Source: Nitrospirota bacterium (GTDB taxonomy: Bacteria; Nitrospirota; Thermodesulfovibrionia; UBA6902). Taken from it: a stretch of 34,534 nt of DNA. Each line of letters starts with the position of its first letter. Positions within the stretch are counted from its first letter, which is position 1. Below are positions 537 through 34,105 of the stretch, one piece after another. The position numbers were made by a program, and so were the translations under genes. Location of the stretch: the NCBI GenBank assembly GCA_016234115.1, contig JACRHD010000013.1, positions 1-34,534 of the forward strand. The letters are read 5' to 3'. The notes beneath the pieces were generated by a model. The model saw nothing but the letters and a program-made list of their open reading frames with translations. It did no database searches and was not told where the DNA came from.

Positions 537-566
537 GCCCACCCTTTCGCGGGTGGGTTTTATTTT
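537..566 (+). terminator. intrinsic terminator acting as riboswitch expression platform
   Basis: CCCACCC (538-544), loop TTTCGC and GGGTGGG (551-557) form a perfect 7-bp GC-rich stem followed by TTTTATTTT. It lies 16 bases after the aptamer and 10 bases before the TonB receptor start codon, the position expected for ligand-controlled transcription termination. Confidence 0.85.
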
Positions 567-576
567 GGGGATCACC

Positions 577-2682: not shown

Positions 2683-2700
2683 TATCGCGGGCAGGACAAG

Positions 2701-3648: not shown

Positions 3649-3657
3649 GCGGCCGGG

Positions 3658-16545: not shown

Positions 16546-17454
16546 ATGAAGAAAATAGTCATTGCCTTTTTCATATACCTGGCTGTCCTGAGCGGCTGCG
16601 ATAAAAAAGAGACGCCGCCTTCCGTCCGGACCTCCGAAAAAGAGACCTTCGTCATCGGTCTTATACCCGAGCAGAATATTTTCAGGCAGATTGAACGATA
16701 TGAGCCTCTTGCCGCTTATCTTTCCGAAAAGGTCGGCCTGCGGGTAAAACTGAAGGTCCTTCCCCGCTATGGAAATATTATCGATAATTTCGTCTCCGAA
16801 GGCATGGACGGCGCATTTTTCGGGAGCTTCACCTATGTGCTGGCGCATTCAAAACTGGGTCTGGAAGTGCTTGCGAGGCCGGTGGCCGACGACGGCCAGT
16901 CCACATATCACGGCCTGATCTTTGTCAGAAAGGACAGCGGCATCAAGAACGCAAAAGACATGAAAGGGAAAATATTTGCCTTTGTGGACAAGGCCACGAC
17001 CGCCGGATTCATACTTCCTCTCGCCTACTTCAAAAAGAACGATATTGAAAGCTACAAGACCTATCTGAAAGAGGGTTATTTCTCGGGGACCCACGAAGAC
17101 GTCATCTATGATGTCCTGAACAGGAAAGCCGATATAGGCGCCGCGAAGAATACCGTGTATGCAAGACTCGCAGGCAGCGACGTAAGAATACAAAATGAGC
17201 TGACCGTACTTGAAAAGTCGCCCGATGTGCCGGAAAACGGGCTGGCGGTGAAAAAGAGTATCGACAGCTCCGTTAAGAACAGGATTACGGAAGTCCTGCT
17301 GAATATGCACAATGACACGGCCGGCAGGAGGGTATTGGAGAAATTCGGCGCCCTGAAATTCATAGAGACCTCCAATGACGACTATGCCCCGGTATTCAAA
17401 TACGCGGACCAGATCGGCCTGGACCTTTCCAGCTATGACTACATCAACTATTGA
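16546..17454 (+). CDS. PhnD-like substrate-binding lipoprotein
   Basis: A 302-residue periplasmic solute-binding protein of the phosphate/phosphite/phosphonate-binding family (PF12974-like). It has a lipobox LSGC with Cys-18 and then a Lys-rich linker. Family segments are FVIGLIPEQN, YEPLAAYLSEKVGLRVKLKV, DGAFFGSFTYVLAH, YHGLIFVRKDSGIKNAKDMK, KIFAFVDKATTAGFILPLAYF, and a DVIYDVLNRKADIGAAKN segment. No ABC permease or ATPase is near. It lies 13 bases before a histidine kinase, so it is more likely the ligand-sensing partner of that kinase than an importer component. Ligand unknown. Confidence 0.85.
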   Translation: MKKIVIAFFIYLAVLSGCDKKETPPSVRTSEKETFVIGLIPEQNIFRQIERYEPLAAYLSEKVGLRVKLKVLPRYGNIIDNFVSEGMDGAFFGSFTYVLAHSKLGLEVLARPVADDGQSTYHGLIFVRKDSGIKNAKDMKGKIFAFVDKATTAGFILPLAYFKKNDIESYKTYLKEGYFSGTHEDVIYDVLNRKADIGAAKNTVYARLAGSDVRIQNELTVLEKSPDVPENGLAVKKSIDSSVKNRITEVLLNMHNDTAGRRVLEKFGALKFIETSNDDYAPVFKYADQIGLDLSSYDYINY

Positions 17455-19306: not shown

Positions 19307-20697
19307 CCGGCAAAAAGAAAATTTTTCTTATAGACGATGATGAGCTGATTGTCACCGTACTGAGCAAGGCATTGCAGGGCGAAGGATACGAAGTGCAGTC
19401 CGAGACCACCTCCTTCAAAAATATTACCGACAAAATCGGGGCCTATTTCCCTGACGCGGTGCTGCTCGACAACAAACTCTCCGGCATGAGCGGTCTGGAC
19501 ATCCTCAAAGAGGTAAAGCAGAGCGGGATAGACTCGCCGGTAATAATGCTGACCGCCGACGACACGGCGGAGACGGCCGTGAAGGCGATGAAATTAGGGG
19601 CCGCGGACTATCTTACCAAGCCCTTCAATATAGAGGAGATGAAGATCGTCATAAGCAATATCATCGAGAAAAAAGCGCTCCGGCAGGAAGTCGATCTCCT
19701 GCGCAGGATCAGCAGCGAGCTCTTTGACGAAAATATCATAGGGGAATCCGGCGTCGTAATGGAGTTGAAAAACAAGATAAAGAAGATAGCCGAGGCGCAG
19801 GTATCAAGCATATTAATCACGGGGGAAAGCGGCACCGGCAAAGAACTCTTTTCAAGGTACATCCACCGCCTGATGTACGGAGACGGCAAGTCCAGGAGCA
19901 AACCCTTTGTCGCCATCAATTGCGCGGCGCTGCCGGAGCATCTGATGGAGAGCGAGCTGTTCGGACATGAAAAGGGCGCATTCACCGACGCCAGGACTGA
20001 AAAGAAAGGGGTCTTCGAACTGGCAAACGGAGGCACCATCCTCCTTGACGAGATAGGGGAAATGAAACCCGCTCTTCAGAGCAAATTATTGAGGGTCCTC
20101 GAGGAAAGGTCCATAAGGCGCATCGGCGGCAAATGGGACATGCAGGTGGACGTTACCGTCATAGCCACCACGAACAGGAACCTCTCCGAGGCCGTCAAAA
20201 CAGGCGAATTCAGGACGGACCTCTTTTTCAGGCTGAGCACTTTTTATCTCCATATTCCCCCGCTCAGAGAGAGGAAAGACGACATACCGTTGCTGGCCCG
20301 CCACTTTCTCTCGCATTACACCACGCGGTACAACAAAAAGGCGATCAAGGCCTTTGATTCGCAGGCTGAAAGGCTTCTGGTTTCCTATAACTGGCCGGGC
20401 AACATCAGGGAGCTTAAAAACCTCGTTGAAAGGCTTGTCGTGCTCGAGAATTCCGAAGAGCTCCTCCCGGAACACCTGCCGAACTGGCTGACGGGCGCAT
20501 CCGCGGGCCGGACCGCTCCGGCCGCTGATAGAGGGTTTGTCCTCCCTGAAGAAGGCATTTCTCTGGATGATGTGGAAAAAGACCTTTTTATACAGGCCCT
20601 GAAAAAGGCGGATTATAACAAGGTGACGGCTGCGAAGCTCCTCGGCATCAGCTATGACTCATTCAGATACGGCATCAAGAAGTACGGTTTAAAGTAG
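19303..20697 (+). CDS. sigma-54-dependent response regulator (NtrC/AtoC type)
   Basis: A 464-residue transcription activator. The receiver domain (about 5-120) has acidic pocket DDD (11-13) and phospho-acceptor Asp-56 in LLDNKLSG. The AAA+ domain has Walker A GESGTGKE, the sigma-54 contact loop GAFTDA (a frequent variant of GAFTGA), Walker B LLDEIGEM, and the R-finger region ending in YNWPGNIRELKN. A Fis-type helix-turn-helix closes the protein (NKVTAAKLLGISYDSFRYGI). It would open sigma-54 promoters when phosphorylated by the linked kinase. The cytochrome promoter at 31074-31088 is an obvious candidate target; that link is inference. Confidence 0.95.
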   Translation: MTGKKKIFLIDDDELIVTVLSKALQGEGYEVQSETTSFKNITDKIGAYFPDAVLLDNKLSGMSGLDILKEVKQSGIDSPVIMLTADDTAETAVKAMKLGAADYLTKPFNIEEMKIVISNIIEKKALRQEVDLLRRISSELFDENIIGESGVVMELKNKIKKIAEAQVSSILITGESGTGKELFSRYIHRLMYGDGKSRSKPFVAINCAALPEHLMESELFGHEKGAFTDARTEKKGVFELANGGTILLDEIGEMKPALQSKLLRVLEERSIRRIGGKWDMQVDVTVIATTNRNLSEAVKTGEFRTDLFFRLSTFYLHIPPLRERKDDIPLLARHFLSHYTTRYNKKAIKAFDSQAERLLVSYNWPGNIRELKNLVERLVVLENSEELLPEHLPNWLTGASAGRTAPAADRGFVLPEEGISLDDVEKDLFIQALKKADYNKVTAAKLLGISYDSFRYGIKKYGLK

Positions 20698-20710
20698 GGG
20701 CGACCCCTAC
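20694..20710. terminator. hairpin shared by converging genes
   Basis: GTAGGGG (20694-20700), CGA, CCCCTAC (20704-20710) form a perfect 7-bp stem that contains the stop codons of both converging regulator genes. No T-run on either side. It may act as a bidirectional mRNA end or be a fragment of a dispersed GGGGCGACCCC repeat. Confidence 0.5.
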
Positions 20711-21375
20711 ACAAACTCGATCCCTGCCCTGTAGGTATTGTAGTCGACCATTGAAATCCATTTGACGATGCCTGCCTTCCGGTCCAGTCCTTCGATAGCG
20801 ATCTTCTGGCCGGCATGAAGTGAATAGTCCGTCATGATGCCCATTCCCCCGTCGCTGATGTCGACCATATCTCCCTGCAGGTTCATTATCTTCGCATCGT
20901 GTTCCGCGGCTTTTATGGAATACTCAAAGCCCCCTTTGAGCAGACGCCTCTCGTGCCTTCTTTTGGACCGCCGCCTGTCCATATTCGCAGAAATTCCGGA
21001 CGGGGCGTCTTTCTCCAGGACATGCTTCAGAATGAACTTTACCTGGTAAAAATCGAAAGGCTTGGATATGAACTGGTAGGCCAACTCCTCCACTTTTTTC
21101 TTGCACTCGTCATTAAGCTCATCGGCCGTCATGATTATGACCTCGGTGTCCGGCGAAATCTCTTTTATTTTTTTCATGACCTCCAGGCCGTTGGTGTCAG
21201 GCAGATTTACATCGAGGAAACAGACGTCGTAAAAATTTGAGGACACCTCATGGGCGACGTCAGTGCCGTTATCGAGGCTCTTGATCTCCACGGGACAATT
21301 ACAGATAGCGGGAATATGTTTTGACAGCCCCCATCGGACCAGACTGTCGTCATCAACTATCATTATACGTTTCAT
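20707..21375 (-). CDS. response regulator with PilZ (c-di-GMP-binding) output domain
   Basis: A 222-residue REC-PilZ protein. The receiver starts MKRIMIVDDDSLVRWG, with the acidic pocket at 8-10, phospho-acceptor Asp-55 in FLDVNLPD, IIMTADE and the conserved Lys in SKPF. From about 128 the PilZ domain shows the Arg-rich c-di-GMP motif (RRRSKRRHERR) and DISDGGMG, matching the D/NxSxxG signature. Such proteins couple a two-component signal and c-di-GMP to motility, exopolysaccharide or gene output. I start at the ATG at 21375 because the upstream 19 codons do not belong to the receiver fold. It converges on the sigma-54 regulator and points away from the cytochrome genes. Confidence 0.92.
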   Translation of the reverse strand: MKRIMIVDDDSLVRWGLSKHIPAICNCPVEIKSLDNGTDVAHEVSSNFYDVCFLDVNLPDTNGLEVMKKIKEISPDTEVIIMTADELNDECKKKVEELAYQFISKPFDFYQVKFILKHVLEKDAPSGISANMDRRRSKRRHERRLLKGGFEYSIKAAEHDAKIMNLQGDMVDISDGGMGIMTDYSLHAGQKIAIEGLDRKAGIVKWISMVDYNTYRAGIEFV

Positions 21376-21390
21376 CTCGTACAAACAAAA

Positions 21391-21405
21391 GCAATTTTTG
21401 TACCA
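21391..21405 (-). promoter_or_regulatory. sigma-54-like promoter before the REC-PilZ gene
   Basis: Minus-strand TGGTACAAAAATTGC has the GG-N10-GC spacing and TTGC element of sigma-54 promoters, with TGGTAC in place of TGGCAC. However, its -12 element lies only 15 bases before the ATG, so the transcript would begin about four bases before the start codon without a ribosome site. Treat as a match whose function is doubtful. Confidence 0.3.
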
Positions 21406-21621
21406 TTTAATTCTTAAGGGCGTTGTAACCACGCAATTATCATAGAGATATGAGAGGAGATCAGAACAAATCCCTGTCCCGAATTTATCCTAACTCCTCT
21501 TTTTCATGGAGAGGAATCGTTCAGGGCAATCAGTTATTGCGGCGTTGTTTTCAACGGGCGACACTAAGGACAACGGTTTCACAGGTCCTGAAACTGCCTC
21601 GGGGGAAATTCGGTTTCCGGT

Positions 21622-21660: not shown

Positions 21661-23439
21661 TTATGGATAGCTCTCGTTGACGTGTGTCCTGCCGTGGCAG
21701 ACAAGGGTGCAGCTTCCTGAAAAAGCGCCCGTATCGGTGAAGATGGGAAATTGGTTCCCGGGCGCAGGGAAGACTGTCCTCGTGTCGAAGTTCATCAGGT
21801 TCGTGTGGCTTCCTGAAACTCCATCGTCCCGGATGCCGTGGGGGTCATGGCACACGGAACACGGGGCGGTCCTGTCCACAATATGCTCCAGATGCCTGTT
21901 AAAGCTCTGGTCCCCTAAAATGCTCGTCCTGTCGTGGCAAGTGTAGCACAGGGCATAATTCTGAAAGCTCTCAGGAGTATTGTCCGTAGTCAGATATTGC
22001 GCCCTTAATATCGGGGCATAATTGGAACCGTGAGGGCCTCCCGATACGCCTCCGTCGTCTCTGTGACAGGCCGTGCAATAGATAATGCTCGACTCCGAAA
22101 GGCCGGGTTCATAGGTGGAAGGGATGCTCGGCACATCGGGATTGCGTCCCATCCCGATCACAGGGTGATATGAGGGGTTTGACAGGGCGAAGTCCACGCG
22201 GGTATTCGTGCTGTCGACGACCCTCGGGATGAAGAATATCTCGGGCGCAAGGTCGGCGTGGCACTTGAAGCATACCTCATATTCATGCAAAGCCGGGTTC
22301 GCTTCCGCACGGTTCGCATCAACGCCGCTGACATTTTCGAGTCTCCCCGATATATGGGGCGCGGCAGCGGACCTGTTATTTGCCGCATGAGGGTTGTGGC
22401 AATCAGCGCACTCGACGTGCCTGTCGGAGATGAAGGCCGGCTCTTCAGTAGGATCATGGTATTGGGCCGTCATTCCGATCATTGTCGCCTCTACGGGATG
22501 GCGCGAGATCTTCTGAAACTGGGCCTTTATGTTCTTTGACGCTACGGCCCCGTCATGACACAGATAACAATTTCTTTCTTCTTCCTGGTAGTTGAGGAGC
22601 CTCAGGGGCCCGCCCGCGAAGTGCGGTAAATGGCAGCTCTCGCACCCCCATTCGGACACCGAAGTCCACGTGGGCCACGTCCTGGGAGGCATGGGCAGGA
22701 GGCCGTTGACCGCAGCCTGCGACGCAGCGTGGGCGGAGAATGTCCATCCGCTCTTCTGGTGACACGCGATGCAGAGGGCCGAATACCGGTTATTCATATT
22801 GAGAAATTTCCCATAGCTGTCGTTATGAGGGTCATGACACGTGGTGCAGTGCATCTCGGCGTCGAGGCCGCCGAAGACGAGCTCGGGCGGCGGCGTGGGA
22901 TAAAGCTCCGCATTGGGAAGCGCGCTGTAGTACGAAAACGACACAGGGTGATGGACGGAGAGATTTAGCCCCAGGTTGGAAAGTGTCCCGGCCGGCATAG
23001 TCGTGATCCCGCCCTGCATTGCGATTACTCCTCCGGATACCGCGACCGCAGGATTTACGACCGCCCCGAGGGCGAGGGTGCCGTCATGACAACTCAGACA
23101 GAGCTTGGTGGGACCGGTCGGCTGGATCGGTACGGGCGACTTTAATGACGGGCTCGTGTAAAAAGAATAACTCTGGGGTTCAAGCTCTTTGTTCCACAGG
23201 GGAGAGCTGGGCGTAGCATTGTGCGGCGTATGGCAGAAGACGCAAATGCGGCTTTCCGAAAAGGCCTTTATCGGTCCCGGCCCCGAGGCGGACAGGTCGT
23301 GCTTGGTGTTGATGATATTTGTTTGCGCGAGGCCGGATGAAGGAGGCATAAACAGGCACACGCCCAGGAAGAGCGCCATGGCAAAGCGTATGACAGGTCC
23401 TATGCGGTCCCGGCTGAATTCAGAATTTCCCATCATCAT
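21661..23439 (-). CDS. 12-heme-type c cytochrome (11 CXXCH plus one CX3CH)
   Basis: A 592-residue secreted multiheme protein with a signal peptide (hydrophobic 16-34, SSGLAQ). It has eleven CXXCH sites: CVFCH, CLSCH, CTTCH, CIACH, CESCH, CYLCH, CADCH, CFKCH, CTACH, CYTCH and CSVCH. Near the C-terminus SCTLVCHGRTH is a CX3CH site. Many are followed by an extra His (CHDPHN, CHTPHN), the doubled-CXXCH style that gives bis-His hemes. Residues about 45-230 resemble the whole tetraheme protein at 30069-30941. Its start overlaps the NHL gene by 20 bases, so translation is coupled. Likely an outer-membrane or extracellular electron carrier; location is inferred. Confidence 0.93.
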   Translation of the reverse strand: MMMGNSEFSRDRIGPVIRFAMALFLGVCLFMPPSSGLAQTNIINTKHDLSASGPGPIKAFSESRICVFCHTPHNATPSSPLWNKELEPQSYSFYTSPSLKSPVPIQPTGPTKLCLSCHDGTLALGAVVNPAVAVSGGVIAMQGGITTMPAGTLSNLGLNLSVHHPVSFSYYSALPNAELYPTPPPELVFGGLDAEMHCTTCHDPHNDSYGKFLNMNNRYSALCIACHQKSGWTFSAHAASQAAVNGLLPMPPRTWPTWTSVSEWGCESCHLPHFAGGPLRLLNYQEEERNCYLCHDGAVASKNIKAQFQKISRHPVEATMIGMTAQYHDPTEEPAFISDRHVECADCHNPHAANNRSAAAPHISGRLENVSGVDANRAEANPALHEYEVCFKCHADLAPEIFFIPRVVDSTNTRVDFALSNPSYHPVIGMGRNPDVPSIPSTYEPGLSESSIIYCTACHRDDGGVSGGPHGSNYAPILRAQYLTTDNTPESFQNYALCYTCHDRTSILGDQSFNRHLEHIVDRTAPCSVCHDPHGIRDDGVSGSHTNLMNFDTRTVFPAPGNQFPIFTDTGAFSGSCTLVCHGRTHVNESYP

Positions 23440-24496
23440 ACTGTTCGGTAATCCGGTAAACCTGCACTCTCCGGTTATAAGTGTCGGCTACATATAATAT
23501 ATCAGTGTCGTCGATAAATATGCCAGAAGGAAGCCAGAATTCGGCGAAATCGCCCCCCCTTTTTCCTACAGTGAGGAGAAAATCCCCCTGTCGGCTGAAG
23601 AGTTGAATATTGTCGAAGAAGCTGTCGACGACATAGATAGCGCCGTCCTTGTCCACTGCCACGCCTTTAGGCATCGCAAAATCTCCGGAGCCGTCTCCAT
23701 GCCTTCCGAATGAGTTTATAAAGCCGCCGTTCTCGTTGAAGGCCGCTATCCTGAAATTCATTGTGTCCGTCACATACAGCACGCCCGTCCGGGACCAGAA
23801 GATATGGGTGGGGAGGTTCAATTGCCCTTCAAGGTCTCCTCTCTGCCCGAAGGACAAAACAGCCTCGCCCTTTTTGTTGAAGGCATATATCCTGTTTTCG
23901 GGGGTGTCCGCAACGTAGAGGATTTCTTTGCGGCTGTTATACGCAAGACCCGTGGGTCTCTTCAGTCTGCCCGAGCCTGTTTCGAAAATGGAAAACAGAA
24001 ACTCGCCCTGACTGTCGAAGACAGCCACCTTGCCGGCCGTCGAGTCCGACACGTAGAGCCTGAGGTCCTCATCGAACGCCGCGCCCACCGGCGACCTCAA
24101 TGGTTCGGGTCCGGCATCGAAGATCCTGACATATTTTTGCTCTTCCGGAATAAACAGGTGAACGCACTTGCAGCCTATGTCAGCAACCGCGAGGCGGCCG
24201 TCCGGTCCGGTCGTAACGGCAATCGGCAGGATGAAAGAGTCGTCGTCGCCCCCGCCTTTGCCGTAAACAGCGATGCTTAACACGTCCCCGGCAGAGCTGC
24301 TGCGCGCAAAACCCTTCACGGTCATGAGATATGTTACCTTCGCCTCGTTGGGCTGGTACGGCCACTGAAGGTTTATATCAGGGCCCTCCGTACGGAGCGC
24401 CCATTTTGAGGCGCAGCCCGTACTCAGGAAAATAATAAGCGCAGCCATTATCAAGGGCCGGCAGCGTATCCCCTTATATAATCTTTTGTCTTTCAT
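23420..24496 (-). CDS. NHL-repeat beta-propeller lipoprotein (second copy)
   Basis: A 358-residue lipoprotein with lipobox LSTGC (Cys-28). After the linker it consists of NHL-type propeller blades with the recurring pattern of L-P-x-G-[IV]-A-V-D followed by Y-V-[AV]-D-[ST]: ILPIAVTTGPDGRLAVADIG, RSPVGAAFDEDLRLYVSDST, KRPTGLAYNS, LNLPTHIFWS with LYVTDTMNFRIAAF, AMPKGVAVDKDGAIYVVDSF, and WLPSGIFIDDTDILYVADTY. About six blades. Such proteins often accompany multiheme cytochromes as scaffolds, but the exact role is unknown. Related to the NHL protein at 28354-29565. Confidence 0.9.
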   Translation of the reverse strand: MKDKRLYKGIRCRPLIMAALIIFLSTGCASKWALRTEGPDINLQWPYQPNEAKVTYLMTVKGFARSSSAGDVLSIAVYGKGGGDDDSFILPIAVTTGPDGRLAVADIGCKCVHLFIPEEQKYVRIFDAGPEPLRSPVGAAFDEDLRLYVSDSTAGKVAVFDSQGEFLFSIFETGSGRLKRPTGLAYNSRKEILYVADTPENRIYAFNKKGEAVLSFGQRGDLEGQLNLPTHIFWSRTGVLYVTDTMNFRIAAFNENGGFINSFGRHGDGSGDFAMPKGVAVDKDGAIYVVDSFFDNIQLFSRQGDFLLTVGKRGGDFAEFWLPSGIFIDDTDILYVADTYNRRVQVYRITEQYDDGKF

Positions 24497-24552
24497 ATGT
24501 CACTTTACAGATAGTCCATAGTAGTCACTTTCCCTCAACTACTTACTGCTGA
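24497..24552. repeat. TACTTACTGCTGACTACT-type word repeat
   Basis: The short gap between the isomerase and NHL genes contains GTCCATAGTAGTCACTT and CTACTTACTGCTGACTACTT, resembling words seen at 29832-29908 and 34349-34384. No hairpin with a T-run is present, so readthrough in the operon is possible. Confidence 0.4.
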
Positions 24553-25545
24553 CTACTTAATCTTTTCCGCCTCTATTATCTCTATCTTCGCATCTTTTCT
24601 CAATGCGTCCTCCCACTCGCGCAGTCTCTTCTTACGGGCCTCGGTCCGGAGCTTGTTTAAGATCACTCCCCTGACTTCCTCGAAAGCAAACTGCTTCTCC
24701 GGCGTGTACTCCTTCAGTTTGATGATGTGAAGGCTGTCGCCAGTCTTGATTACCCCGGAGATGTCTCCCGGTTTCATTTTTCTCGCCTCCTCGCAAAGCT
24801 CGGCGTCTCTGTCTTTCCTGAGCTCCGCGTCGTGCGCGATAAACGTGCCGTCAGTCGCTATCTTAAAGGGGTCCCGGTCACCTTCTTCAAGCAATTTTTT
24901 TAAAATTTCCCCGGCCTTCGCAACCGAACCGGCGTCTTCGGGCTCCAGAAAAAAGACGACGTCGGTGACCGTTATTTTTTCCTGCCTGAGGAATTTCTCT
25001 TTTTCGTAAACGCTCCTTATCTCGTCTTCGGATACGACGACTTTATCGACTACCTCCTTCATAAAGACCCTGTTCAGGATGATGCCCCTTTCCGTTTCAG
25101 CGCGAAAATCTTCTTCAGTCGTCGCCTCTTTTTCGAGCAACTTCCTGAAGATGAAGTCGCCTCCCATTCTCTCCTTCAATCTCTCAACCCGTTTGTCCAC
25201 TTCGGAAGGGTCGATCTTCATACCGCCGGCCCGGGCGCTCTGGTAAGCCAGTTCCTCTGTCACGACCCTGTCGAGGGCCTCTTTTCTAACGGCCTCCGCG
25301 CTCTCCACGACATCAGGCCCCTTCGAGGCCCTGACACGGTCCATCATCTCAAGGACGGCCTTGAGCGTAATATCTCTTCCGTTTACCCTCGCTGCAACGG
25401 TCTTTCCGGCGTCCTGACCAGGTCCTTCGGCAACACCTTGCCCGGCCTGCTCCTGTGACGGTCCCCCGCCGCTCTCACCGGCCATCGCCGGACATGACAG
25501 GCATATCCCTATCAATGAAAGCATAATGCAAACTGCTTTTATCAT
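24553..25545 (-). CDS. SurA/PpiC-type periplasmic peptidyl-prolyl isomerase
   Basis: A 330-residue periplasmic folding factor. It has a signal peptide MIKAVCIMLSLIGICLSCPA, a Gly/Gln-rich linker, a SurA-like N-terminal helical domain (VARVNGRDITLKAVLEMMDR and EALDRVVTEELAYQSARAGG), then a parvulin/rotamase domain about 190-300 (KITVTDVVFFLEPED, MKPGDISGVIKTGDSLHIIK) and a final helix. The ATG at 25545 has a strong ribosome site GGAGGAGAG. The parvulin active-site residues are not easy to place, so chaperone activity may dominate. Its place between a beta-barrel gene and a multiheme cytochrome gene suggests help in folding those exported proteins. Confidence 0.88.
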   Translation of the reverse strand: MIKAVCIMLSLIGICLSCPAMAGESGGGPSQEQAGQGVAEGPGQDAGKTVAARVNGRDITLKAVLEMMDRVRASKGPDVVESAEAVRKEALDRVVTEELAYQSARAGGMKIDPSEVDKRVERLKERMGGDFIFRKLLEKEATTEEDFRAETERGIILNRVFMKEVVDKVVVSEDEIRSVYEKEKFLRQEKITVTDVVFFLEPEDAGSVAKAGEILKKLLEEGDRDPFKIATDGTFIAHDAELRKDRDAELCEEARKMKPGDISGVIKTGDSLHIIKLKEYTPEKQFAFEEVRGVILNKLRTEARKKRLREWEDALRKDAKIEIIEAEKIK

Positions 25546-25646
25546 CTCTCCTCCTATCGAGAGTATACAAGAAGACAACTCCTCATCTTCTTTCTCTGTG
25601 TTACCTGTGGTTTATTTTTATAGTAAGAAATCTGTCCGCGAAGGGA

Positions 25647-27686
25647 CTAAAATAATTGCCTCTTTACGTTTAAATAATAATACTGATGTATCTTTTTTGT
25701 TTCTCCGGCCTGGGAGGCTGCCGTCGATTTGCTCTGAGAGCTGGATGCGCTCGCTCCCAGGCTCACTATCAGCTTGCCGACCCTCCAGACGAGGTTCGAA
25801 TTGAGTGAGTATATTGAAGCCTCTACCAGACCCCTTGTATCGGCATAAGCCGCGCCCGCGGAGAGCAGGAGGCTCTTTTCAGGTATCCTCTTCTGGACGG
25901 CGGCGGAAAGGGTAGAGGTCTTGACTGAATACCCCTGTCCGTTTACTTCGGACGTGCCCTCGGGATAAGTTGTGATCACATACGATGCCGCCGCATTGCC
26001 CGTGGCGGTCTCACTGAAACTGTGAACGTATTCCACCTCGTTTCTCCACGCCCAGTACGGCGAAACGTTTGAGCTGACTTTCTGATACTCTGTAAGAACA
26101 GTGACAGGCTCTTTCTCGACAACCACGCCTACGGTATGCGACTTGGAATCGATAGGCTCCCCCGGGAAGGTCCCTGAGAGCACCGAGGATTTCATCCTTA
26201 CAAACCTGTAATAGGGATTTACCATGTTATTCATCAGATTTGACCCGAGATTGTATCCGGCAGAGTCCGTCCGGAGTCTGAGTTTCTCCGAAATCAGGGA
26301 ATAGGTGACGAGGAACTCGAAGGTCCCGTCTGTGGCGGAGCCGGCCGGAAGGACGTCGGCGATAATGATGTCCGTGATCTGGAAGGTATTGCCGAAAGGC
26401 GCTACCCGGAAGTTTATGCCCTCCACGAGGGGAATGAGCTCCGACGGCGGCAGCGGCGACCGCAGAAAGACCCTGATGGTGGCCTGGTCCGCGCCCTGAG
26501 AATTGAGGAGGAAGGCGCCGGGCACCGGGAGCTCCACGGGGTGGGGCTCATTGACGATGTCCGTCGCTCCCGAGGTATCCATTACAGTCCTGCTGAGGCT
26601 GACCCCGGCCGTCAATTTACCGCTGGGAATCAGCTTTGTATAGTTTGTCGCAATTGAATGAGTTGCGCCGTCGGAATCGCTGCCCGAAGATTCGGTCATA
26701 ATGCGCTTATACGAGTACGAGTTGTTCAGACTCCGGTAGAGCCTGTGCAGGAGGCCCGCCTCGAACGTGTTGGTAGTGCTTAAAAACGTGGTCCCGACGG
26801 CCCCGGGGGCGCCGGACGTGAACGTATTTTCGAGATAAGAATATGAGCTCCCCACGTCGAAGTTCAGCGGAAGCGAGACGTCAACGCGTTCGGACCACGA
26901 AAACTGTTCACTTTCAAGGGAGGCGGAAGGACTTTTCTGGCTGAACGTGTTCTGGGACAAACGGAGGCCCGTGCTTGCATTATGCGTTTTGACCAGGGTC
27001 CCTAAAGAATATACATCCGAGTCGCCGTCAAGCGATAACGATGAGTTGAAATCCGAATGGTTATACATCATGTCCGTTGAAAACAGGTTTCCCACGCTGT
27101 CCTGTTCGTAGTAGGTGCCGCTTACTATGAAATTCGTCACCTCGGAAGTGCTCCCTGTGGACTCAAGGGTGTTTTCCGTATAACTCGAACTGAAAAAGAC
27201 CGGCCTCTTCCGGTAACGGAACAGCGCCCCTTCGGTGGTAGATTCGCTGCGGGAGCGCCCCTGTTTCAGCAGGGGTTCGGAGCGGCGGGCGAACAGTTCA
27301 AGATTATAGGGATGCTCGGGCAGCAGAATCATGGTGCCGGAATACATGATAGTGCCGATGTTCTTCCAGCCGTCGTCGGCCCTGGAGGAGGTGCTTATAC
27401 TTTCATGCCTGAGGCCGCTTGAAATTGAAAGTGTATACATAATAAACCTGGGGTGATAGACGAACCCCTCCGAAATAAGGGTCAATCTCTCCCTCAGAAT
27501 GGTGTCCGTCAGCTCCAAATCGTTTGCGCCCCCCTTTCCACTCTCTTTCTCAACAGAGGTGAACAGTTCCAGGTCCCCCCTGTTTTCAACCGGCCTCGGG
27601 ATGAACCTCTTCCAGTCGGCAGATGCGGAAACAGGGATTGCCGTCAGGGTCGCGGTCAGGATGATGATTATAGCAATATGTTTCAT
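25647..27686 (-). CDS. large outer-membrane beta-barrel protein, candidate electron-conduit porin
   Basis: A 679-residue protein starting MKHIAIIIILTATLTAIPVSASA (signal peptide), followed by a region about 25-90 and then a long run of alternating amphipathic strands, rich in Ser, Thr, Tyr and Leu (for example FIVSGTYYEQDSVGNLFSTD, LTAGVSLSRTVMD, SLLLSAGAAYAD). It ends VKRQLF, with the C-terminal Phe of BamA-recognised barrels. Near the middle (about 385-470) a globular insert has the pattern ATIRVFLRSPLPPSELIPLV. No close named family is recognised. Flanked by the pentaheme and isomerase genes, it fits the porin partner of a porin-cytochrome conduit. A longer GTG start at 27737 is possible. 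Confidence 0.75.
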   Translation of the reverse strand: MKHIAIIIILTATLTAIPVSASADWKRFIPRPVENRGDLELFTSVEKESGKGGANDLELTDTILRERLTLISEGFVYHPRFIMYTLSISSGLRHESISTSSRADDGWKNIGTIMYSGTMILLPEHPYNLELFARRSEPLLKQGRSRSESTTEGALFRYRKRPVFFSSSYTENTLESTGSTSEVTNFIVSGTYYEQDSVGNLFSTDMMYNHSDFNSSLSLDGDSDVYSLGTLVKTHNASTGLRLSQNTFSQKSPSASLESEQFSWSERVDVSLPLNFDVGSSYSYLENTFTSGAPGAVGTTFLSTTNTFEAGLLHRLYRSLNNSYSYKRIMTESSGSDSDGATHSIATNYTKLIPSGKLTAGVSLSRTVMDTSGATDIVNEPHPVELPVPGAFLLNSQGADQATIRVFLRSPLPPSELIPLVEGINFRVAPFGNTFQITDIIIADVLPAGSATDGTFEFLVTYSLISEKLRLRTDSAGYNLGSNLMNNMVNPYYRFVRMKSSVLSGTFPGEPIDSKSHTVGVVVEKEPVTVLTEYQKVSSNVSPYWAWRNEVEYVHSFSETATGNAAASYVITTYPEGTSEVNGQGYSVKTSTLSAAVQKRIPEKSLLLSAGAAYADTRGLVEASIYSLNSNLVWRVGKLIVSLGASASSSQSKSTAASQAGETKKIHQYYYLNVKRQLF

Positions 27687-27767
27687 AATGGAATAAAGGA
27701 GTCGGAATACGGTTTGAATACGCTGTTTCCATTCCACATTCTGACACCTGAATTATGTATTCTGTCT

Positions 27768-28295
27768 TCACTTAAGCAAGTATCTTCTGTCGGACATATG
27801 CGCATTGTGACAGGAGGTGCAATCCGTGTCAACGTCTTTATGCGCTTCATTACGGGCTATGGCCTTCTCATCGTGGCAATGGAGGCAAAATTCTTCCGAC
27901 TTTGAGACAAGGAGATATCGCTGCCTGGAACTGTGCGGGTCATGGCATACCCTGCACCCGCCCGAGGCAAGGGGACCATGTATCCATTGCTTGTCCATGC
28001 GGAATTCGTGGCACCTGACGCAGAGCTCCTCGATTGAGGCGACGAACCTGTTGGTGCCCTGTATATGGCACCCGTTGCACATTTTTGCGGCATATGGACC
28101 GTGCTGATAACTGGTCCTCTTTTTTACGCCTGCCTCCCCGGCGTCCCCCTTTTGTACCTTCGCGACCCTTTCTTCCTCAGGGTCGGGCACGCCGTCGAAG
28201 AAGAAACTGAGGACCCTGTATCGTGTCGTTGCCTCGCAGCCGTACAGCAGCGCCGCCGTCAAAATGATGGTCAGGAATATTGTAGACTTCTTCAT
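27768..28295 (-). CDS. pentaheme c-type cytochrome lipoprotein
   Basis: A 175-residue lipoprotein with lipobox LLYGC (Cys-20). Five CXXCH sites: C73 (CNGCH), C92 (CVRCH), C114 (CRVCH), C137 (CLHCH) and C159 (CTSCH). Extra His residues after the third and fifth (CHDPH, CHNAH) fit the doubled-CXXCH family with bis-His hemes. Start chosen at the ATG at 28295 because the upstream 52 codons lack a signal peptide and overlap the preceding gene; GGGAAG precedes the ATG. It lies directly before the barrel gene, so it may be the periplasm-facing or barrel-inserted cytochrome. That placement is inference. Confidence 0.9.
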   Translation of the reverse strand: MKKSTIFLTIILTAALLYGCEATTRYRVLSFFFDGVPDPEEERVAKVQKGDAGEAGVKKRTSYQHGPYAAKMCNGCHIQGTNRFVASIEELCVRCHEFRMDKQWIHGPLASGGCRVCHDPHSSRQRYLLVSKSEEFCLHCHDEKAIARNEAHKDVDTDCTSCHNAHMSDRRYLLK

Positions 28296-28353
28296 TGCTT
28301 CCCTTGCGCCCATCTTTGAAAAAAGAGGTGTCAGGGGAGAGGAAGCTTCCCGC

Positions 28354-29565
28354 TCACTTCTCTTCCGGCTTCCCTGTATTCCCGGCGGCGTCGCCTGTTT
28401 CACCGGGCGCTCCGGGCTCTTCCTTTGTTCCGGACTTTTTCTGCATTTCATCCCATTCCCTCTGCCGTTTTTCCTCGAGCTCGTTCAGGAGCACATCTTC
28501 AGAGGGATACGTCTTCCCTTTTTCCTTCCCGAAGCCGAGGACGTTCACCAGGCGTTCCCCGAACTGGCTCGTTACCAGGACCAGGTATTCGAGCTCGAAG
28601 TCGGGCTTCGCATACTTCTGAAAGTACTCCAGATTGTCATAGTCAATGGTGACCTTTGCCGGGAGGAGGAAATCGCCGGGATTGCGCCCGCCCTGTCCGA
28701 AAAAGAGGAGTATCCTGCCGTGCTTGCTGAATATCTGCACGTTCTGAAAACCGGCGTCAACCGCATAAAGCCGGCTTTCCCTGTCAAGGGCGACGCCTCT
28801 GGGCCTCGAAAAATGTCCCAGGTTATTCCCCAGCTTTCCGTACACGGCGATAAAGTGTCCGTCCCTGTCGAACTTTACGACCTGGACCCTCCCCGCGTCG
28901 GCGACATAGACATATCCGTCACGGTCAACAGCCACATTGGTGGGCATGGAAAGCAGCGCCATGGGGTCTTCCCCGGAATTTCCGATACTCTTGACCATCT
29001 TGCCCGATTTTTTTTCAAAGATCCTGACCGCGCCGTTCATAATGTCGGCGACATAGACCCTGTCTTCGAATGCCGCGGCGTCTACCGGCTTCCAGACCCC
29101 GGGGCTCCCGTATGCCGTCAGGTACTCATCGTTTTTATCAAAGACGACCACCTGTCCCCTGATCGGGTCCGTAACATACTTGGTGCCGTCCTCTTCGATG
29201 CTGATGTTAAGCGGCTGAATGAGCTTGCCGGGGCCCCTCACCCCCTTGAGGGTTTCGTATTTCTTTGCCTTCAGATCAAAGACGATCACTGTATCATTGG
29301 TGTCGCAGACGTAGATCTTTCCGTCATAAATCCCCACTCCGTAGGGCTTGTCCAGTTTCCTGTGCCGCTTCGCCCCGATTACGAAATCGTCAAAAGCTGA
29401 ATCTTCCTCGATGTCATGCGAACCTGAAAAGGAAGTGAGATACTGGAGGCGTGGGAGCTCAGGCGGCGAAGGGAAAAATACCGTCTCGTCCTTTTTTGGG
29501 GGCGCCGCGCACCCCACGATAATAAGCAGACACATTGCGTATGCAATGTATTTTACTCTCTTCAT
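28354..29565 (-). CDS. NHL-repeat beta-propeller lipoprotein (first copy)
   Basis: A 403-residue lipoprotein with lipobox IVGC (Cys-19) and about six NHL blades: DKPYGVGIYDGKIYVCDTND, IQPLNISIEEDGTKYVTDPI, KPVDAAAFEDRVYVADIMNG, SMPTNVAVDRDGYVYVADAG, SRPRGVALDRESRLYAVDAG and a final blade. A charged C-terminal tail (about 360-403, EEKRQREWDEMQKK, then Gly/Glu-rich) follows. It is the first gene of the minus-strand cytochrome run and has a good ribosome site (GGAGAG). A 378-codon open frame on the opposite strand is only a shadow. Function unknown; blade order and context match the other NHL lipoprotein. Confidence 0.9.
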   Translation of the reverse strand: MKRVKYIAYAMCLLIIVGCAAPPKKDETVFFPSPPELPRLQYLTSFSGSHDIEEDSAFDDFVIGAKRHRKLDKPYGVGIYDGKIYVCDTNDTVIVFDLKAKKYETLKGVRGPGKLIQPLNISIEEDGTKYVTDPIRGQVVVFDKNDEYLTAYGSPGVWKPVDAAAFEDRVYVADIMNGAVRIFEKKSGKMVKSIGNSGEDPMALLSMPTNVAVDRDGYVYVADAGRVQVVKFDRDGHFIAVYGKLGNNLGHFSRPRGVALDRESRLYAVDAGFQNVQIFSKHGRILLFFGQGGRNPGDFLLPAKVTIDYDNLEYFQKYAKPDFELEYLVLVTSQFGERLVNVLGFGKEKGKTYPSEDVLLNELEEKRQREWDEMQKKSGTKEEPGAPGETGDAAGNTGKPEEK

Positions 29566-30007
29566 GCGAACTCTCCTTCTTTGCGTGTCCGTTGATAAAA
29601 CCCGGCCATGTATCTCACGGAGAAAAACCTGAATTCACAGCCGCTGGTGCGCCCGGACATTCGCTGATTTTCTTTCTGGATATCTGAAAATTATCTGTGT
29701 TCATCCGGGGTCGTTTTGTTCACCGCCGTGTCCGCTGCGGCTTTTCTTTCTTCTCCCCGAGAAGAGGCGCGAAAGCTTACATAGTATATCATTTTCCTTT
29801 CAACTTTTGGTTCATTCACTCTCGGTCCATTCAGCAGACAGCAGACGGTAAACAGCAGGCAGTAGAGAAGCGCACTGTCTACCGGCTGCCGCCTGCCGTC
29901 AACTGCCCAGGCTTATTCATAAACTCCGGGAGGTATGATTCAATAATATGTTGCCGCAATCCCCTGGCCGGAATTATCGCGTGGTATAAAACGGACACTC
30001 CGTGCTA
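29566..30007. other. leader region of the minus-strand cytochrome operon
   Basis: No gene is visible. 29832-29908 carries CAGCAGACAGCAGACGG and CTGCCGCCTGCCGTCAACTG-like words, an imperfect inverted repeat related to blocks at 24497 and 34349. The only promoter candidate is an extended -10 (see next entry), giving a leader of about 210 bases. Confidence 0.4.
29783..29791 (-). promoter_or_regulatory. possible extended -10 promoter for the NHL-cytochrome run
   Basis: Minus-strand TGATATACT is an extended -10 (TGnTATACT). The -35 region 17 bases upstream (ACCAAA) is poor. It is the best candidate between the 30008-30041 terminator and the NHL gene. Confidence 0.35.
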
Positions 30008-30041
30008 AATAAAAGAAGGGGGATGGAATCCATCCCCCTTC
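30008..30041 (-). terminator. intrinsic terminator after the tetraheme gene
   Basis: GAAGGGGGATGG (30015-30026) and CCATCCCCCTTC (30030-30041) form a perfect 12-bp stem with a 3-base loop. On the minus strand it is followed by TTTTATTT. It lies 28 bases past the tetraheme stop and separates that gene from the NHL-cytochrome operon. Confidence 0.92.
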
Positions 30042-30068
30042 AGGTAACTTCAGACTATCCTGCTCATT

Positions 30069-30941
30069 TTACGGAGTAAAAGAAGTAGGATCGAGGTAAT
30101 TCGGGTCAAGTGAGCCCTTGTCATGACAGGTCAAACAGAGGGCACTTCTGATGTCACTCCTCCAGAGGAGTCTTTCGCCGGAGTTCCCTTTGTTATGGAC
30201 TGAATGACAGGTCCCGCACTCGAGCCTGGCATCTTCACCATAAAGGTGGTCGGCTATGGTGGAGCCGTCCGCTGTCATTTCCGTGCCGGAATCCCTGATG
30301 TACTTGTCCGAGCCCTGTACTGCTTCATAATCGAAGCCGATCGGGTGGTGGTTGCCGAGATAGCCGTCTTTTCCGATCAGGTAGGTCTCGTCATCGATCT
30401 CCAGGTCGCCGTTGCCGATAGAGGAAACAGGCTGCGGAGCGCTGCCGTATGAGTTAACGGCAACAGTGCCGTCATGACAGCTCAGGCAAAGCAGTGAGGT
30501 GCTGCCCGGGGTCATGCCGTTGTCGATTGCCTGGGAGCGCAGGTCGCCTGTAGTGGGCTCGCCGGGGCCGTTAACGTACATCTGATAGGAATCCGCCAGG
30601 CCTGTAACTTCATGGTTCCACAGAGGCAGATAATTGAACTTGTCGGACGGGGCATTAATGCCTGTTCCGACTGCTACTCCGGTAAGCTTCATGGAGTGGT
30701 GCGGGGTATGACAGAAGATACAAATCCTGTCGAGAACGTCCACTGAGCCGGCAGCCCAGTAAGTCATGCCTTTTGCCTGCTGGTTGCTCTTACTCAGATC
30801 ATGGACTGAGCCGTTAATTCCCGCTCCCGGCACGTAGCCGCCAGTCGTCCATGAATCTTCCGGGGTGTATGTGGCCATAGCGCTGGATACGATAAATAAT
30901 CCGAGAGCAAGGCACAATAATACTAAAATATGCTTCTTCAT
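30069..30941 (-). CDS. secreted tetraheme c-type cytochrome
   Basis: A 290-residue exported protein with a signal peptide (MKKHILVLLCLALGLFIVSS, cleavage near AMA). Four CXXCH sites: C74 (CIFCH), C152 (CLSCH), C242 (CGTCH) and C269 (CLTCH). Candidate distal ligands include His-47 in HDLS, the His in CHTPHH, His-198/199 in NHHPIGF and His-249 in CHSVHN. The arrangement HDLS, ICxFCHTPH, LCLSCHDGTVA, HPI/VxF and LCLTCH also forms the N-terminal third of the 12-heme protein at 21661-23439. A strong ribosome site (AAGGAGGA), its own sigma-54 promoter and its own terminator mark it as a separately controlled, probably highly expressed gene. The heme count matches the filament-forming OmcE, but no homology to it was tested. 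Confidence 0.93.
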   Translation of the reverse strand: MKKHILVLLCLALGLFIVSSAMATYTPEDSWTTGGYVPGAGINGSVHDLSKSNQQAKGMTYWAAGSVDVLDRICIFCHTPHHSMKLTGVAVGTGINAPSDKFNYLPLWNHEVTGLADSYQMYVNGPGEPTTGDLRSQAIDNGMTPGSTSLLCLSCHDGTVAVNSYGSAPQPVSSIGNGDLEIDDETYLIGKDGYLGNHHPIGFDYEAVQGSDKYIRDSGTEMTADGSTIADHLYGEDARLECGTCHSVHNKGNSGERLLWRSDIRSALCLTCHDKGSLDPNYLDPTSFTP

Positions 30942-31041
30942 ACGTTACTTCCTCCTTAATTTTGTTTGTTTTTGTTTCTCCGCGCGTCTCAAGACGCACG
31001 CTTTTTTTCGGCGCCTCCGACACCCCCGCATCAAAAGCGCC

Positions 31042-31093
31042 AATTCTGGCAGACTATCTGACAGTTAGCAGTCGCAATTAGCATGCCAGAATT
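31042..31093. repeat. 10-bp inverted repeat enclosing the sigma-54 promoter start region
   Basis: AATTCTGGCA (31042-31051) and TGCCAGAATT (31084-31093) are perfect inverses, 32 bases apart. The right arm contains the -24 GG of the sigma-54 promoter; the left arm falls about 11-20 bases downstream of the expected transcription start. A regulator bound to both arms could cover the promoter. Confidence 0.6.
31074..31088 (-). promoter_or_regulatory. sigma-54 (RpoN) promoter of the tetraheme cytochrome gene
   Basis: Minus-strand TGGCATGCTAATTGC matches the -24/-12 consensus TGGCACG-N4-TTGC at all but one position, with exact GG-N10-GC spacing. The predicted start is near 31062, leaving a 121-base leader that contains GCGTC/GACGC and GGCGC/GCGCC hairpins before the ribosome site. 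Activation would need an enhancer-binding protein such as the regulator at 19303-20697. Confidence 0.8.
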
Positions 31094-31411
31094 TTTATGC
31101 GGGTCTTACCGTATCTCAAATTTCATTCTCCAGCCCTCTAACCATACAGATTTAAAATCATTTTCCGGATTTCAGCGCTTGCCGCCGGACCCACGGGTGC
31201 CGGAATTTCTCCGCACAATTGGTGAAATATCCAAAAGGAACTGGGGAATTTACCATCAGCCCCTCAGCCGGGGAACCGTAATATCTTCCATGTAAAATTT
31301 TTCAACTGTATGGGTGGGGGTTTTCGGGAATTTGCAGGAGGTGACGGTAAGAGAATCAGGGTGACGCAAGGGGCGGGTCTGACAACCCGCCCCTTGCGCC
31401 GGTTCAAGGGT
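31094..31411. other. region upstream of the sigma-54 promoter, with a 14-bp hairpin
   Basis: No gene is visible. CGCAAGGGGCGGGT (31365-31378) and ACCCGCCCCTTGCG (31385-31398) form a perfect 14-bp stem 14 bases past the stop of the 897-residue gene; it lacks a T-run, so it is an mRNA 3' hairpin or weak terminator. The remaining bases 31094-31364 are where enhancer sites for the sigma-54 activator would lie; I could not define a clear tandem site. Confidence 0.5.
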
Positions 31412-34105
31412 TTATGGACTTAACGCAATGATATTAATGCCCGCGCCGCTTGGTCCGACTGTAACCGTAGCAGAAGGAGCGGAAAAGACATAGTTGTACT
31501 TTGTGACCAGGATATCGTATGTCCCTGGTTTGAGATTGCTGACTGTATAGGTCCCGCTCGAATTAGTAGAGACCGTTATTGTCGAGGAGCCCTTTACCGC
31601 CTTCACTGTTGCTGAAGACACGGGGGTCACGCCGTCGGACTTGTATACTTTCCCGGTTATGGTGAAAGTGGCAGGAGTCACTGTCAGCGTCTCAGTGCGG
31701 CTCTGTCCGATGGTATCGACCGCCTCGTGAGTGATGGTCTTCAGGCCCGCGGTCGTATACGTGTGCGTAAATACCGTGCCCTGTGGGCCGCTCTGCTGCG
31801 GACTGCCGTCGCCCCAGTTCGTAATTTTCACGAGAGATACGCCGTTGTCGTCCGTGGAACTGTCAACAATAGTTGCGACCCAGGTATCGGCATTGAGAAC
31901 TACAGGGTTTGAGTGGCTCGCCGTCGGCGGCTCATCGGCCTTGTAGACGGTAACTTTCTTACTCGTTGAGGCCGAGGTCGAATTCCCCGCGTCTATTACG
32001 GTGAGTGTTACAGTATATGTTCCCGCGGCAAGATATGTATGTGAGGCGGTCGCGACCCCGACAAAGGTGTCTTTTGTGCCGTCTCCCCAATTCCATCTGA
32101 ATTCACTGCAGGGATTGCTGCTGTAACACAATGAGGCCGAGGCATTGACCACAAGCGTCAGGCTTATGGGAGGGGAAAAGCCGAAGCTCGGCTGCGGCCA
32201 GTCCTTATGGATGCCTTTGGCCTCTCTTGCCAGAGTGGCCTTGTTCATAGGACCTGTGCCCCACGGCGGGACCTCTGTATACCCGGACCCGCCGCCGCCG
32301 ACATGGCACTGCCCGCATACGAGGTCCACGTCCAGCTTGACCTGATAGTGGGGAAGCATGGCGGCCGACAAATCAGCCCCCTCATGGCATTGCGCGCAGG
32401 AAGCGTGCTGCGCGGGATCATAGATACATGGCGACATCAGGTGGCACGTTCTGCAGGAATCATCCAGCGTGACTCCGCTGTGCATCGCCATGCCGGATGA
32501 CAGGTCCGGCGACGCATGGCACTGTTCACAGGCAGGATTGAGGTCCGCATTATTGGGGTCATACGTACAGGCCTGCTCCACGTGGCACTGCCTGCAAGCC
32601 AGGTCCCACCAGCCGACTGTATTGGCAGTGCGCTGTCCGGCGTCCCACTGCTCCTGCGTGGGGAATGTACTGTAGTTCGCGTTTGTGCTTATCCTGAAGA
32701 TATGCGAAGAGGACGTGCTGCGCTGGTTCAGACTGGGCATATGGCAGAGCTTGCATGCGCAGGCTATGTCCTCGACTGCACAGTTGCCGAGGGGGTCTCC
32801 GTCACCGGGCGCGTGCGTCATCCTGGTCTGAACAGTGATGACCTTGTCGGCATGACATTCCGGGCAGTCCTTCTTAAAAGGCGCCGTTGCATTGACCGCC
32901 TTCACCGTGCTCTGGTGGACGTCATGGCAGGTGGTGCAGCCTGTGCCGACCCCCTCATGCTCAGGGTCTTCATAAGCTGAAAAAGAACTGGTGTATCTCG
33001 ACGGGTCGCCGATTTGCGCGAAATTTCCGGTAAACCCTCCATGCGCCCCGTTCAAAAACTCGTTACCGGTGGAGTACCCGTAAAACTGGAGGGCATAGCC
33101 GCTGTATCCGCCGATCTCGATTGCGGGAAGGGGATAGAGGGGTTCGGATGCCGGCAGGGAGACGTTGTCCGTATACGGAGTAGGCACGATGTTGGCCCCA
33201 AGTCCTCCCCCCGTATACGGCAGGGTATGTTCCTGTCTGTGGCAGTTCATGCATAACGCGGTTGCATCGGCGCCCCTTGTAATAGTGGGGCCGCCGTTCA
33301 TGTGATTTGTGGCGTCATGACACCGTTCACACGTAATCCCGTCCACAGCCCATGAACCTGATATGGCACGACCGTCTCCGTCAGGGTCAAAATCAACTTT
33401 TCCGGTGGTATTGGCCGGGGTCCAGGAAATGCGCGGGAAGCCCGCCTCGGGGCTGCGACTGCCGCTGACCGCCTCGTCCATGGTATAACCGGTTGTGTGG
33501 CAGCGTCCGCATCCGTATGAAACAGCAGTCTTGTTCGAGCCCTGATCATAACCGTCAAAAACAGCTAATGGAGCAGCCGGTTCAAGCATCCATCCGCCGA
33601 GAATATAATAAAGGGACTTCTTGCCTGATATCCATATCCCTCCGCCTGCCGTGCAAACGCTTTGGCTCGCAGTCTCGGAGTTGGAGCAAAAACCGAGAAT
33701 ATCGATTGTATTGTCGGTCCAGTTGATCACGTTGCCGGCTTCATCGGAAATATAGGCCGTCCCCTCGGGCCCCGCGATTTGTATAGGCGGCGTCTGAGCG
33801 CTCCTCAACATATTTTTGTGACCGGTCCTGAGATAGGCTGTCATGTCCGGCACGGGACGATTGAACATGCTGGTGACCCCTGAGTTGTGGCATGTTAAAC
33901 AGGACCCGATCGTGCCTTGCGGGTATATCCACCCTCCGGGCGGCACCGTGGGATTAAGCCTGGAGCCGTCACCCGAGTATATCCGGCCCGCCTGTGACCA
34001 GGCATTCTGTGCAGCCGGTATCAGAAGAATTATGAGTACAAAGAAAATAATCGCCGGCAGAATGGCCTTCGCGACGCGTTCATTTTTATTCCTTTTATTG
34101 ATCAT
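31412..34105 (-). CDS. 12-heme surface cytochrome fused to PKD-like and carboxypeptidase-regulatory-like domains
   Basis: An 897-residue exported protein. A signal anchor/peptide spans about 13-37. Twelve CXXCH sites lie between residue 69 and about 615: CLTCH, CGRCH, CERCH, CMNCH, CTTCH, CPECH, CKLCH, CRQCH, CEQCH, CRTCH, CAQCH and CGQCH. Then come a PKD domain (FRWNWGDGTKDTF, HTYLAAGTYTVTLTV), a second PKD-like domain (ITNWGDGSPQQSG, HTYTTAGLKTITH) and a carboxypeptidase-regulatory-like domain (ITGKVYKSDGVTPVSSATVK, SGTYTVSNLKPGTYDILVT). The beta-sandwich tail suggests cell-surface display or binding to carbohydrate or mineral. Ribosome site GGAGG is 6 bases before the ATG. The tail TVTVGPSGAGINIIALSP resembles that of the partial gene at 34446. 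Confidence 0.93.
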   Translation of the reverse strand: MINKRNKNERVAKAILPAIIFFVLIILLIPAAQNAWSQAGRIYSGDGSRLNPTVPPGGWIYPQGTIGSCLTCHNSGVTSMFNRPVPDMTAYLRTGHKNMLRSAQTPPIQIAGPEGTAYISDEAGNVINWTDNTIDILGFCSNSETASQSVCTAGGGIWISGKKSLYYILGGWMLEPAAPLAVFDGYDQGSNKTAVSYGCGRCHTTGYTMDEAVSGSRSPEAGFPRISWTPANTTGKVDFDPDGDGRAISGSWAVDGITCERCHDATNHMNGGPTITRGADATALCMNCHRQEHTLPYTGGGLGANIVPTPYTDNVSLPASEPLYPLPAIEIGGYSGYALQFYGYSTGNEFLNGAHGGFTGNFAQIGDPSRYTSSFSAYEDPEHEGVGTGCTTCHDVHQSTVKAVNATAPFKKDCPECHADKVITVQTRMTHAPGDGDPLGNCAVEDIACACKLCHMPSLNQRSTSSSHIFRISTNANYSTFPTQEQWDAGQRTANTVGWWDLACRQCHVEQACTYDPNNADLNPACEQCHASPDLSSGMAMHSGVTLDDSCRTCHLMSPCIYDPAQHASCAQCHEGADLSAAMLPHYQVKLDVDLVCGQCHVGGGGSGYTEVPPWGTGPMNKATLAREAKGIHKDWPQPSFGFSPPISLTLVVNASASLCYSSNPCSEFRWNWGDGTKDTFVGVATASHTYLAAGTYTVTLTVIDAGNSTSASTSKKVTVYKADEPPTASHSNPVVLNADTWVATIVDSSTDDNGVSLVKITNWGDGSPQQSGPQGTVFTHTYTTAGLKTITHEAVDTIGQSRTETLTVTPATFTITGKVYKSDGVTPVSSATVKAVKGSSTITVSTNSSGTYTVSNLKPGTYDILVTKYNYVFSAPSATVTVGPSGAGINIIALSP

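Follow-up and report, generated by a model that had tools for sequence, protein, structure and literature searches.

A probable Uet/OmcE-type extracellular electron transfer operon in Nitrospirota, with a candidate joint between cytochrome nanowire and outer membrane

Layout of the cytochrome locus

The window, meaning the entire stretch of DNA analysed (34,534 nucleotides), is the whole of contig C61 in a 3.5-Mb, 97% complete Nitrospirota genome. As the initial annotation had stated, the eight genes of a cytochrome locus (A to H) all lie on the minus strand, between 21661 and 34105, as seen in the open reading frames and their translations (Table 1). Most of the features that it had listed are likewise visible in the translations, which contain 12 CXXCH motifs in the PKD-domain protein (A, 897 aa, also with a CarboxypepD_reg domain), 4 in the tetraheme protein (B, 290 aa) and 5 in the pentaheme protein (D), together with lipoboxes in the pentaheme protein and in both NHL proteins (IVGC in C and LSTGC in G), a terminal Phe in the barrel (E, ending ...KRQLF) and Rotamase_2 and SurA_N matches in the isomerase (F). 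Genes C-D-E-F-G-H are packed tightly, from 29565 down to 21661, and B probably has a transcript separate from this C-H operon, because a strong terminator-like hairpin (30041-30015) comes after it.

Table 1. Positions of the genes and sites in the window
Feature	Position	Strand	Basis
B, secreted tetraheme, OmcE homologue, UetA-like	30069..30941	-	sequence match to OmcE
C, NHL/6-bladed propeller lipoprotein 1	28354..29565	-	Pfam NHL, DUF5128
D, pentaheme lipoprotein, MtrA-related	27768..28295	-	MtrA profile match, lipobox, 5 CXXCH
E, outer-membrane beta-barrel, UetC-like	25647..27686	-	AlphaFold2, Foldseek
F, SurA/PpiC-type prolyl isomerase, UetB-like	24553..25578	-	Rotamase_2 2.8e-12, SurA_N_3 1.9e-10
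G, NHL/6-bladed propeller lipoprotein 2	23420..24496	-	Pfam NHL 1.1e-25
H, probable dodecaheme cytochrome, UetJ-like	21661..23439	-	OmcE match and heme motifs
A, 12-heme PKD cytochrome, neighbour of cluster	31412..34105	-	PKD_4 7.3e-16, 12 CXXCH
Intrinsic terminator-like hairpin 3' of B	30015..30041	-	12-pair stem, 8 G-C pairs, T tract
Sigma-54-type -24/-12 promoter TGGCATGCTAATTGCG	31073..31088	-	147 bases 5' of B start codon
Response regulator with PilZ-like domain, adjoins operon	20707..21432	-	Response_reg 4e-21; weak PilZ
Histidine kinase and sigma-54-dependent response regulator	17468..20697	+	HisKA/HATPase, Sigma54_activat

The sigma-54-type site before B does not rise above chance when scored in the window alone, and the signal at tetraheme genes emerges only from comparison across genomes. 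In particular, 29% of 91 tetraheme genes taken from the fetched loci have an upstream score of at least 13.5, compared to 2.4% of 1314 other open reading frames; the window's own site scores 13, just under the cut. Strong matches precede the tetraheme genes in most Nitrospirota and in several Geobacter loci. The natural reading is that B, as an abundant wire subunit, would be expressed from its own regulated sigma-54 promoter. The histidine kinase and the sigma-54-dependent regulator are probable regulators of the cluster; homologues occur near it in loci L011-L014 and L016. The response regulator that adjoins the operon has a 77% identical ortholog at the same position in L011, and its PilZ match falls under the curated cut-off.

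Other neighbouring genes were also noted. Protein A was considered as a part of the system and rejected as unproven, with no homologue in any other locus compared; its gene is followed by a hairpin and preceded by a terminator-like site. A gene for a phosphonate-type substrate-binding protein (16546-17454) lies directly before the histidine kinase gene, has a homologue in the same place in L011 and is perhaps the kinase's sensor partner. Further away, the plus strand has consecutive genes (553-6228) for a TonB receptor, an ABC substrate-binding protein and a GGDEF/EAL protein, apparently unrelated to the cytochromes.

The barrel, its pentaheme neighbour and their conservation

The initial annotation had named the prediction of a non-barrel as a result that would count against its reading of E. 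The AlphaFold2 model, calculated on an alignment of 46 sequences, is a confident barrel with about 28 long strands and a small inserted domain near residues 377-465 (mean pLDDT 90, pTM 0.75; probable start at 27686). The best Foldseek matches of this model are large outer-membrane barrels, of which MtrB (6r2q_B) is second (E 8.6e-9). MtrB resembles it structurally no more than other barrels do (TM of about 0.4), and therefore the fold class of E is sure and a specific kinship is not. E matches no Pfam or NCBIfam model, as expected from the earlier remark that it fits no nameable family, and has no sequence or profile match in the PDB, MtrB included; the lack of a family match only shows that the barrel belongs to a fast-evolving family.

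The pentaheme protein D is encoded directly next to E. Its open reading frame begins at 28451 (227 aa), and the conserved start at 28295 (175 aa) is the probable true one. The lipobox (LLYGC) and the five CXXCH motifs are conserved in nine aligned sequences, and MtrA (6r2q chain A) is matched by D at 2.9e-19 with a profile and at 7.4e-10 with the single sequence. The PDB sequence file gives this chain the misleading label 'Cystathionine beta-synthase'. Because D has five hemes versus ten in MtrA, D alone may be too short to span the barrel. The adjacency of a large outer-membrane barrel and a periplasm-facing multiheme cytochrome is conserved, which places the pair in the porin-cytochrome functional class.

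Conservation was examined at two scales. A search of 41 relatives with the barrel found E in nine genomes, the window's own included, and the gene order in relatives is tetraheme, (extra cytochrome), NHL lipoprotein, pentaheme, barrel, (isomerase), NHL and the 11-CXXCH protein. In these relatives, the ortholog of C adjoins the pentaheme gene and the ortholog of G lies directly before H; F has the same place in L011, L115, L116 and L117, and the other Nitrospirota subtype lacks it at that position. Across a wider range, named genomes searched with OmcE and related proteins as queries yielded 80 loci from Planctomycetota, Verrucomicrobiota, Bacteroidota, Calditrichota, Ignavibacteriota, KSB1, Pseudomonadota (Proteobacteria), Nitrospirota and others. 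According to profiles, the barrel is present in 47 and an NHL gene in 67 of the 80 loci, and 22 contain B, the pentaheme, the barrel, NHL and H together; the figures for H tend to be too high, as many loci had been collected by way of their H match, a bias that touches the co-occurrence of B, D, E and NHL less. Within the Nitrospirota, the H profile finds 77 of 296 genomes at 1e-40, in some cases through one half of it only. Since the core gene set and its order recur in relatives and across phyla, the locus is not a chance assembly, and the initial annotation's alternative, that the genes would not be conserved together, does not hold.

These results bear on the possibility that E is an unrelated outer-membrane transporter whose gene merely adjoins cytochrome genes. 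The missing family match and the Foldseek scores, which are those of barrels in general, would agree with it; E nevertheless keeps its position between the pentaheme and the NHL2/H genes over large evolutionary distances, and Pfam finds no TonB plug domain in it, making this explanation highly improbable.

The same genome has a second, divergent copy of the system on contig C59 (about 2000-22200; L099, L100 and L131). It contains a split H (a 262-aa tetraheme and a 387-aa protein with seven CXXCH), NHL genes, an isomerase, a 631-aa barrel candidate weakly similar to E, a second tetraheme and a D-like cytochrome with 15 CXXCH.

The tetraheme B and the composite cytochrome H

The best PDB match of B is OmcE (7tfs, E 6.5e-14), followed by 9yuq (6.7e-12), a second OmcE relative whose single entry holds 16 copies of the chain. 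In an alignment with OmcE and its relatives, B keeps all four OmcE heme motifs and four candidate distal His (HDLS, HTPHH, NHHP and SVHN). By homology, its four CXXCH motifs and this set of distal His, B is assigned to the homologues of OmcE, a nanowire subunit of Geobacter.

The second 12-heme protein of the initial annotation, H (592 aa), has that number of motifs only if a CX3CH motif is counted (CTLVCH, residues 577-582; window 21694-21711); by CXXCH alone there are 11. In 47 homologues all twelve motifs are invariant or nearly so, and the CX3CH is invariant, for which reason 12 hemes is probably the better count. The 'undecaheme' UetJ proteins in the literature may likewise be dodecaheme proteins that were undercounted, and judging from sequence probably are.

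H is divided into an OmcE-type domain (22726-23439) and an eight-heme domain (21661-22725). The N-terminal part of about 200 aa matches OmcE 7tfs at 3.8e-41 and 9yuq at 1.4e-33, and OmcE is the sole significant Foldseek match of the H model; the N-domain model has low confidence (block pLDDT mostly 34-64, no hemes in the model), and its OmcE match is specific. Further, in ten fetched loci, including the one on contig C59, the two halves of H are separate, adjoining genes. A tree built from 151 domains puts almost every N-domain, fused or split, in one cluster, apart from the stand-alone tetrahemes, with a support of 90/65 for the 75-row group and of 99/91 for 71 of those rows. This grouping suggests that an OmcE-type module devoted to an eight-heme partner is old and widespread. 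The H/UetJ family is conserved over many phyla, as two adjoining genes in some Nitrospirota. In the literature searched, the 11-heme protein is nowhere recognized as a 12-heme fusion with a nanowire domain; papers outside that search may have it.

Two other explanations depend on what H and B do. According to the first, H would be a multiheme reductase, located outside the cell or in the periplasm and acting for instance on nitrogen or sulfur oxyanions, the barrel would admit the substrate, and the cluster would be a respiratory enzyme system. The CX3CH heme motif in H and a weak match of its middle part to OcwA (6i5b, 2.8e-5) point this way, as does the presence of dsrA in this Nitrospirota genome, from which it follows that other respirations exist. 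The OcwA match, however, covers CXXCH-rich sequence, the confident model of the H C-domain matches no reductase in the PDB significantly, and the genes kept alongside H encode an MtrA-like pentaheme and an OmcE-type subunit, all of which leave a reductase very unlikely. According to the second, D, E and H would form a three-part conduit like MtrCAB, B would be a soluble or surface tetraheme shuttle that does not polymerise, and the OmcE-type domain of H would be a surface module. A sequence can show a heme arrangement and not polymerisation, and the separation of the stand-alone tetrahemes from the H N-domains in the tree would be consistent with such a conduit. Against it, the candidate OmcE ligand positions, including the His of the N-terminal HDLS, are all kept in both B and H, and the 16 chain copies in the 9yuq entry would fit a filament. 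This second explanation is therefore judged unlikely, with a better claim than the reductase.

Relation to known systems and the proposed electron path

The initial annotation had suggested that this may be an undescribed type of conduit, which is not supported. The same list of parts has been published as Uet ('undecaheme electron transfer') in Candidatus Tenderia and Gallionella, where it comprises the tetraheme UetA, the isomerase UetB, the barrel UetC, the NHL proteins UetH/UetI, the undecaheme UetJ and the trihemes UetD/E/G (PMC10734462). Matched by composition only, B corresponds to UetA, F to UetB, E to UetC, C and G to UetH/UetI, and H to UetJ. There are two differences from this description: UetJ is undecaheme whereas H has 12 motifs once CX3CH is counted, and instead of the periplasmic trihemes UetDEG there is a single MtrA-like pentaheme lipoprotein in the window. 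With no triheme gene in the window, the locus is a related variant of Uet and not a strict match. Moreover, two loci of Candidatus Thiodiazotropha (L057 and L059) have a Uet-like composition with triheme genes and are recognized by the B, E, G and H profiles of the window family; no isomerase was seen in either. The shared parts and these profile matches identify the window locus, at the level of sequence, as a member or close variant of the described kind. A set of isomerase, pentaheme lipoprotein, multihemes and six-bladed propeller lipoproteins had also been noted in Desulfovibrio ferrophilus (DFE_0448-0465) and Candidatus Desulfofervidus (PMC8322314), which, compared by description, have extra genes for OmpA-family, F5/8 type C domain and other lipoproteins.

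The Geobacter OmcE loci (L020, L021, L028 and L036) share with the window an OmcE homologue with flanking NHL genes, multihemes with D-like repeats, an open reading frame of about 740 aa ending in Phe and a sigma-54-like promoter before the tetraheme. They differ in having 8-10-heme cytochromes and apparent ResB/CcsA-type genes and in lacking an H (UetJ-type) protein, and their barrel candidate has no detectable similarity to E (E 0.01 to 9). Of the Geobacter neighbours named in the initial annotation, NHL genes do flank OmcE, and no prolyl isomerase was seen in these loci. The MtrCAB/Pcc systems resemble the locus in combining a barrel, an MtrA-related periplasmic cytochrome and an outer cytochrome, with D resembling MtrA; they differ in that D has five hemes versus ten and E is unrelated to MtrB by sequence. 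Strict membership in MtrCAB was rejected on three grounds: E has no MtrB profile match, D has five hemes, and no protein of the locus reaches the OmcA/MtrC NCBIfam cut-off, leaving the locus without a surface decaheme of that type. Another conduit, OetABI, contains the barrel OetI together with OetA and OetB (PMC10553843).

Overall, a function of the locus in extracellular electron transfer is well supported, and the porin-cytochrome logic of the initial annotation is upheld by the predicted barrel, the MtrA-related pentaheme, the OmcE-type cytochromes and the conserved operon. The locus is probably a Uet/OmcE-type operon that combines an outer-membrane conduit with a cytochrome nanowire and in which H would be the joint, placing such a system in groundwater Nitrospirota. 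In the proposed path, D would sit inside the barrel E and conduct electrons through the outer membrane, in the manner of MtrA within MtrB, and H would bind on the outside, with its eight-heme domain facing D/E and taking over from D. In OmcE filaments, a His of one subunit binds the heme of the next (PMC9473688, PMC12954529). Since OmcE subunits are linked in this way, the OmcE unit attached to H would provide a ready-made base, or first unit, for a filament of B. We infer the placement of D in E, and the contacts of H with both E and B. The lipoproteins C and G would be surface or periplasmic scaffolds, F would fold or deliver the barrel or the cytochromes, and B would be produced in excess from its sigma-54 promoter under the adjoining two-component system. 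The conduit could feed the nanowire or be fed by it, with electrons running outward to minerals or partners or else inward, as both directions are compatible with the sequence.

The passage of electrons between cytochrome nanowires and the outer membrane has been described as poorly understood (PMC10553843). The general system is a known one, of the Uet/OmcE type; the fusion of a wire subunit with an eight-heme cytochrome may be what connects the wire to the cell, and it occurs in a barrel-conduit operon common to many phyla. The specific proposal that the H/UetJ family is this missing joint, with the eight-heme domain docking on the conduit and the OmcE-type domain capping or nucleating the filament through an inter-subunit His-heme bond, is a tentative one, somewhat short of an even chance. 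It turns the nanowire-to-membrane question into a testable one, with one protein, two domains and predicted partners. No protein from this or any other Uet locus is known to have been isolated as part of a complex.

The locus had also been put forward as a candidate complete one, which is not supported: it contains no inner-membrane quinol gate, and the PKD protein A is outside the conserved set. Genes of the NapC/NirT family are located elsewhere in the genome. In four loci of the other Nitrospirota subtype (L014, L015, L016 and L088), a seven-heme protein and membrane-type open reading frames of about 190 aa are found downstream of H; these are possible genes for the inner-membrane side or for cytochrome maturation.
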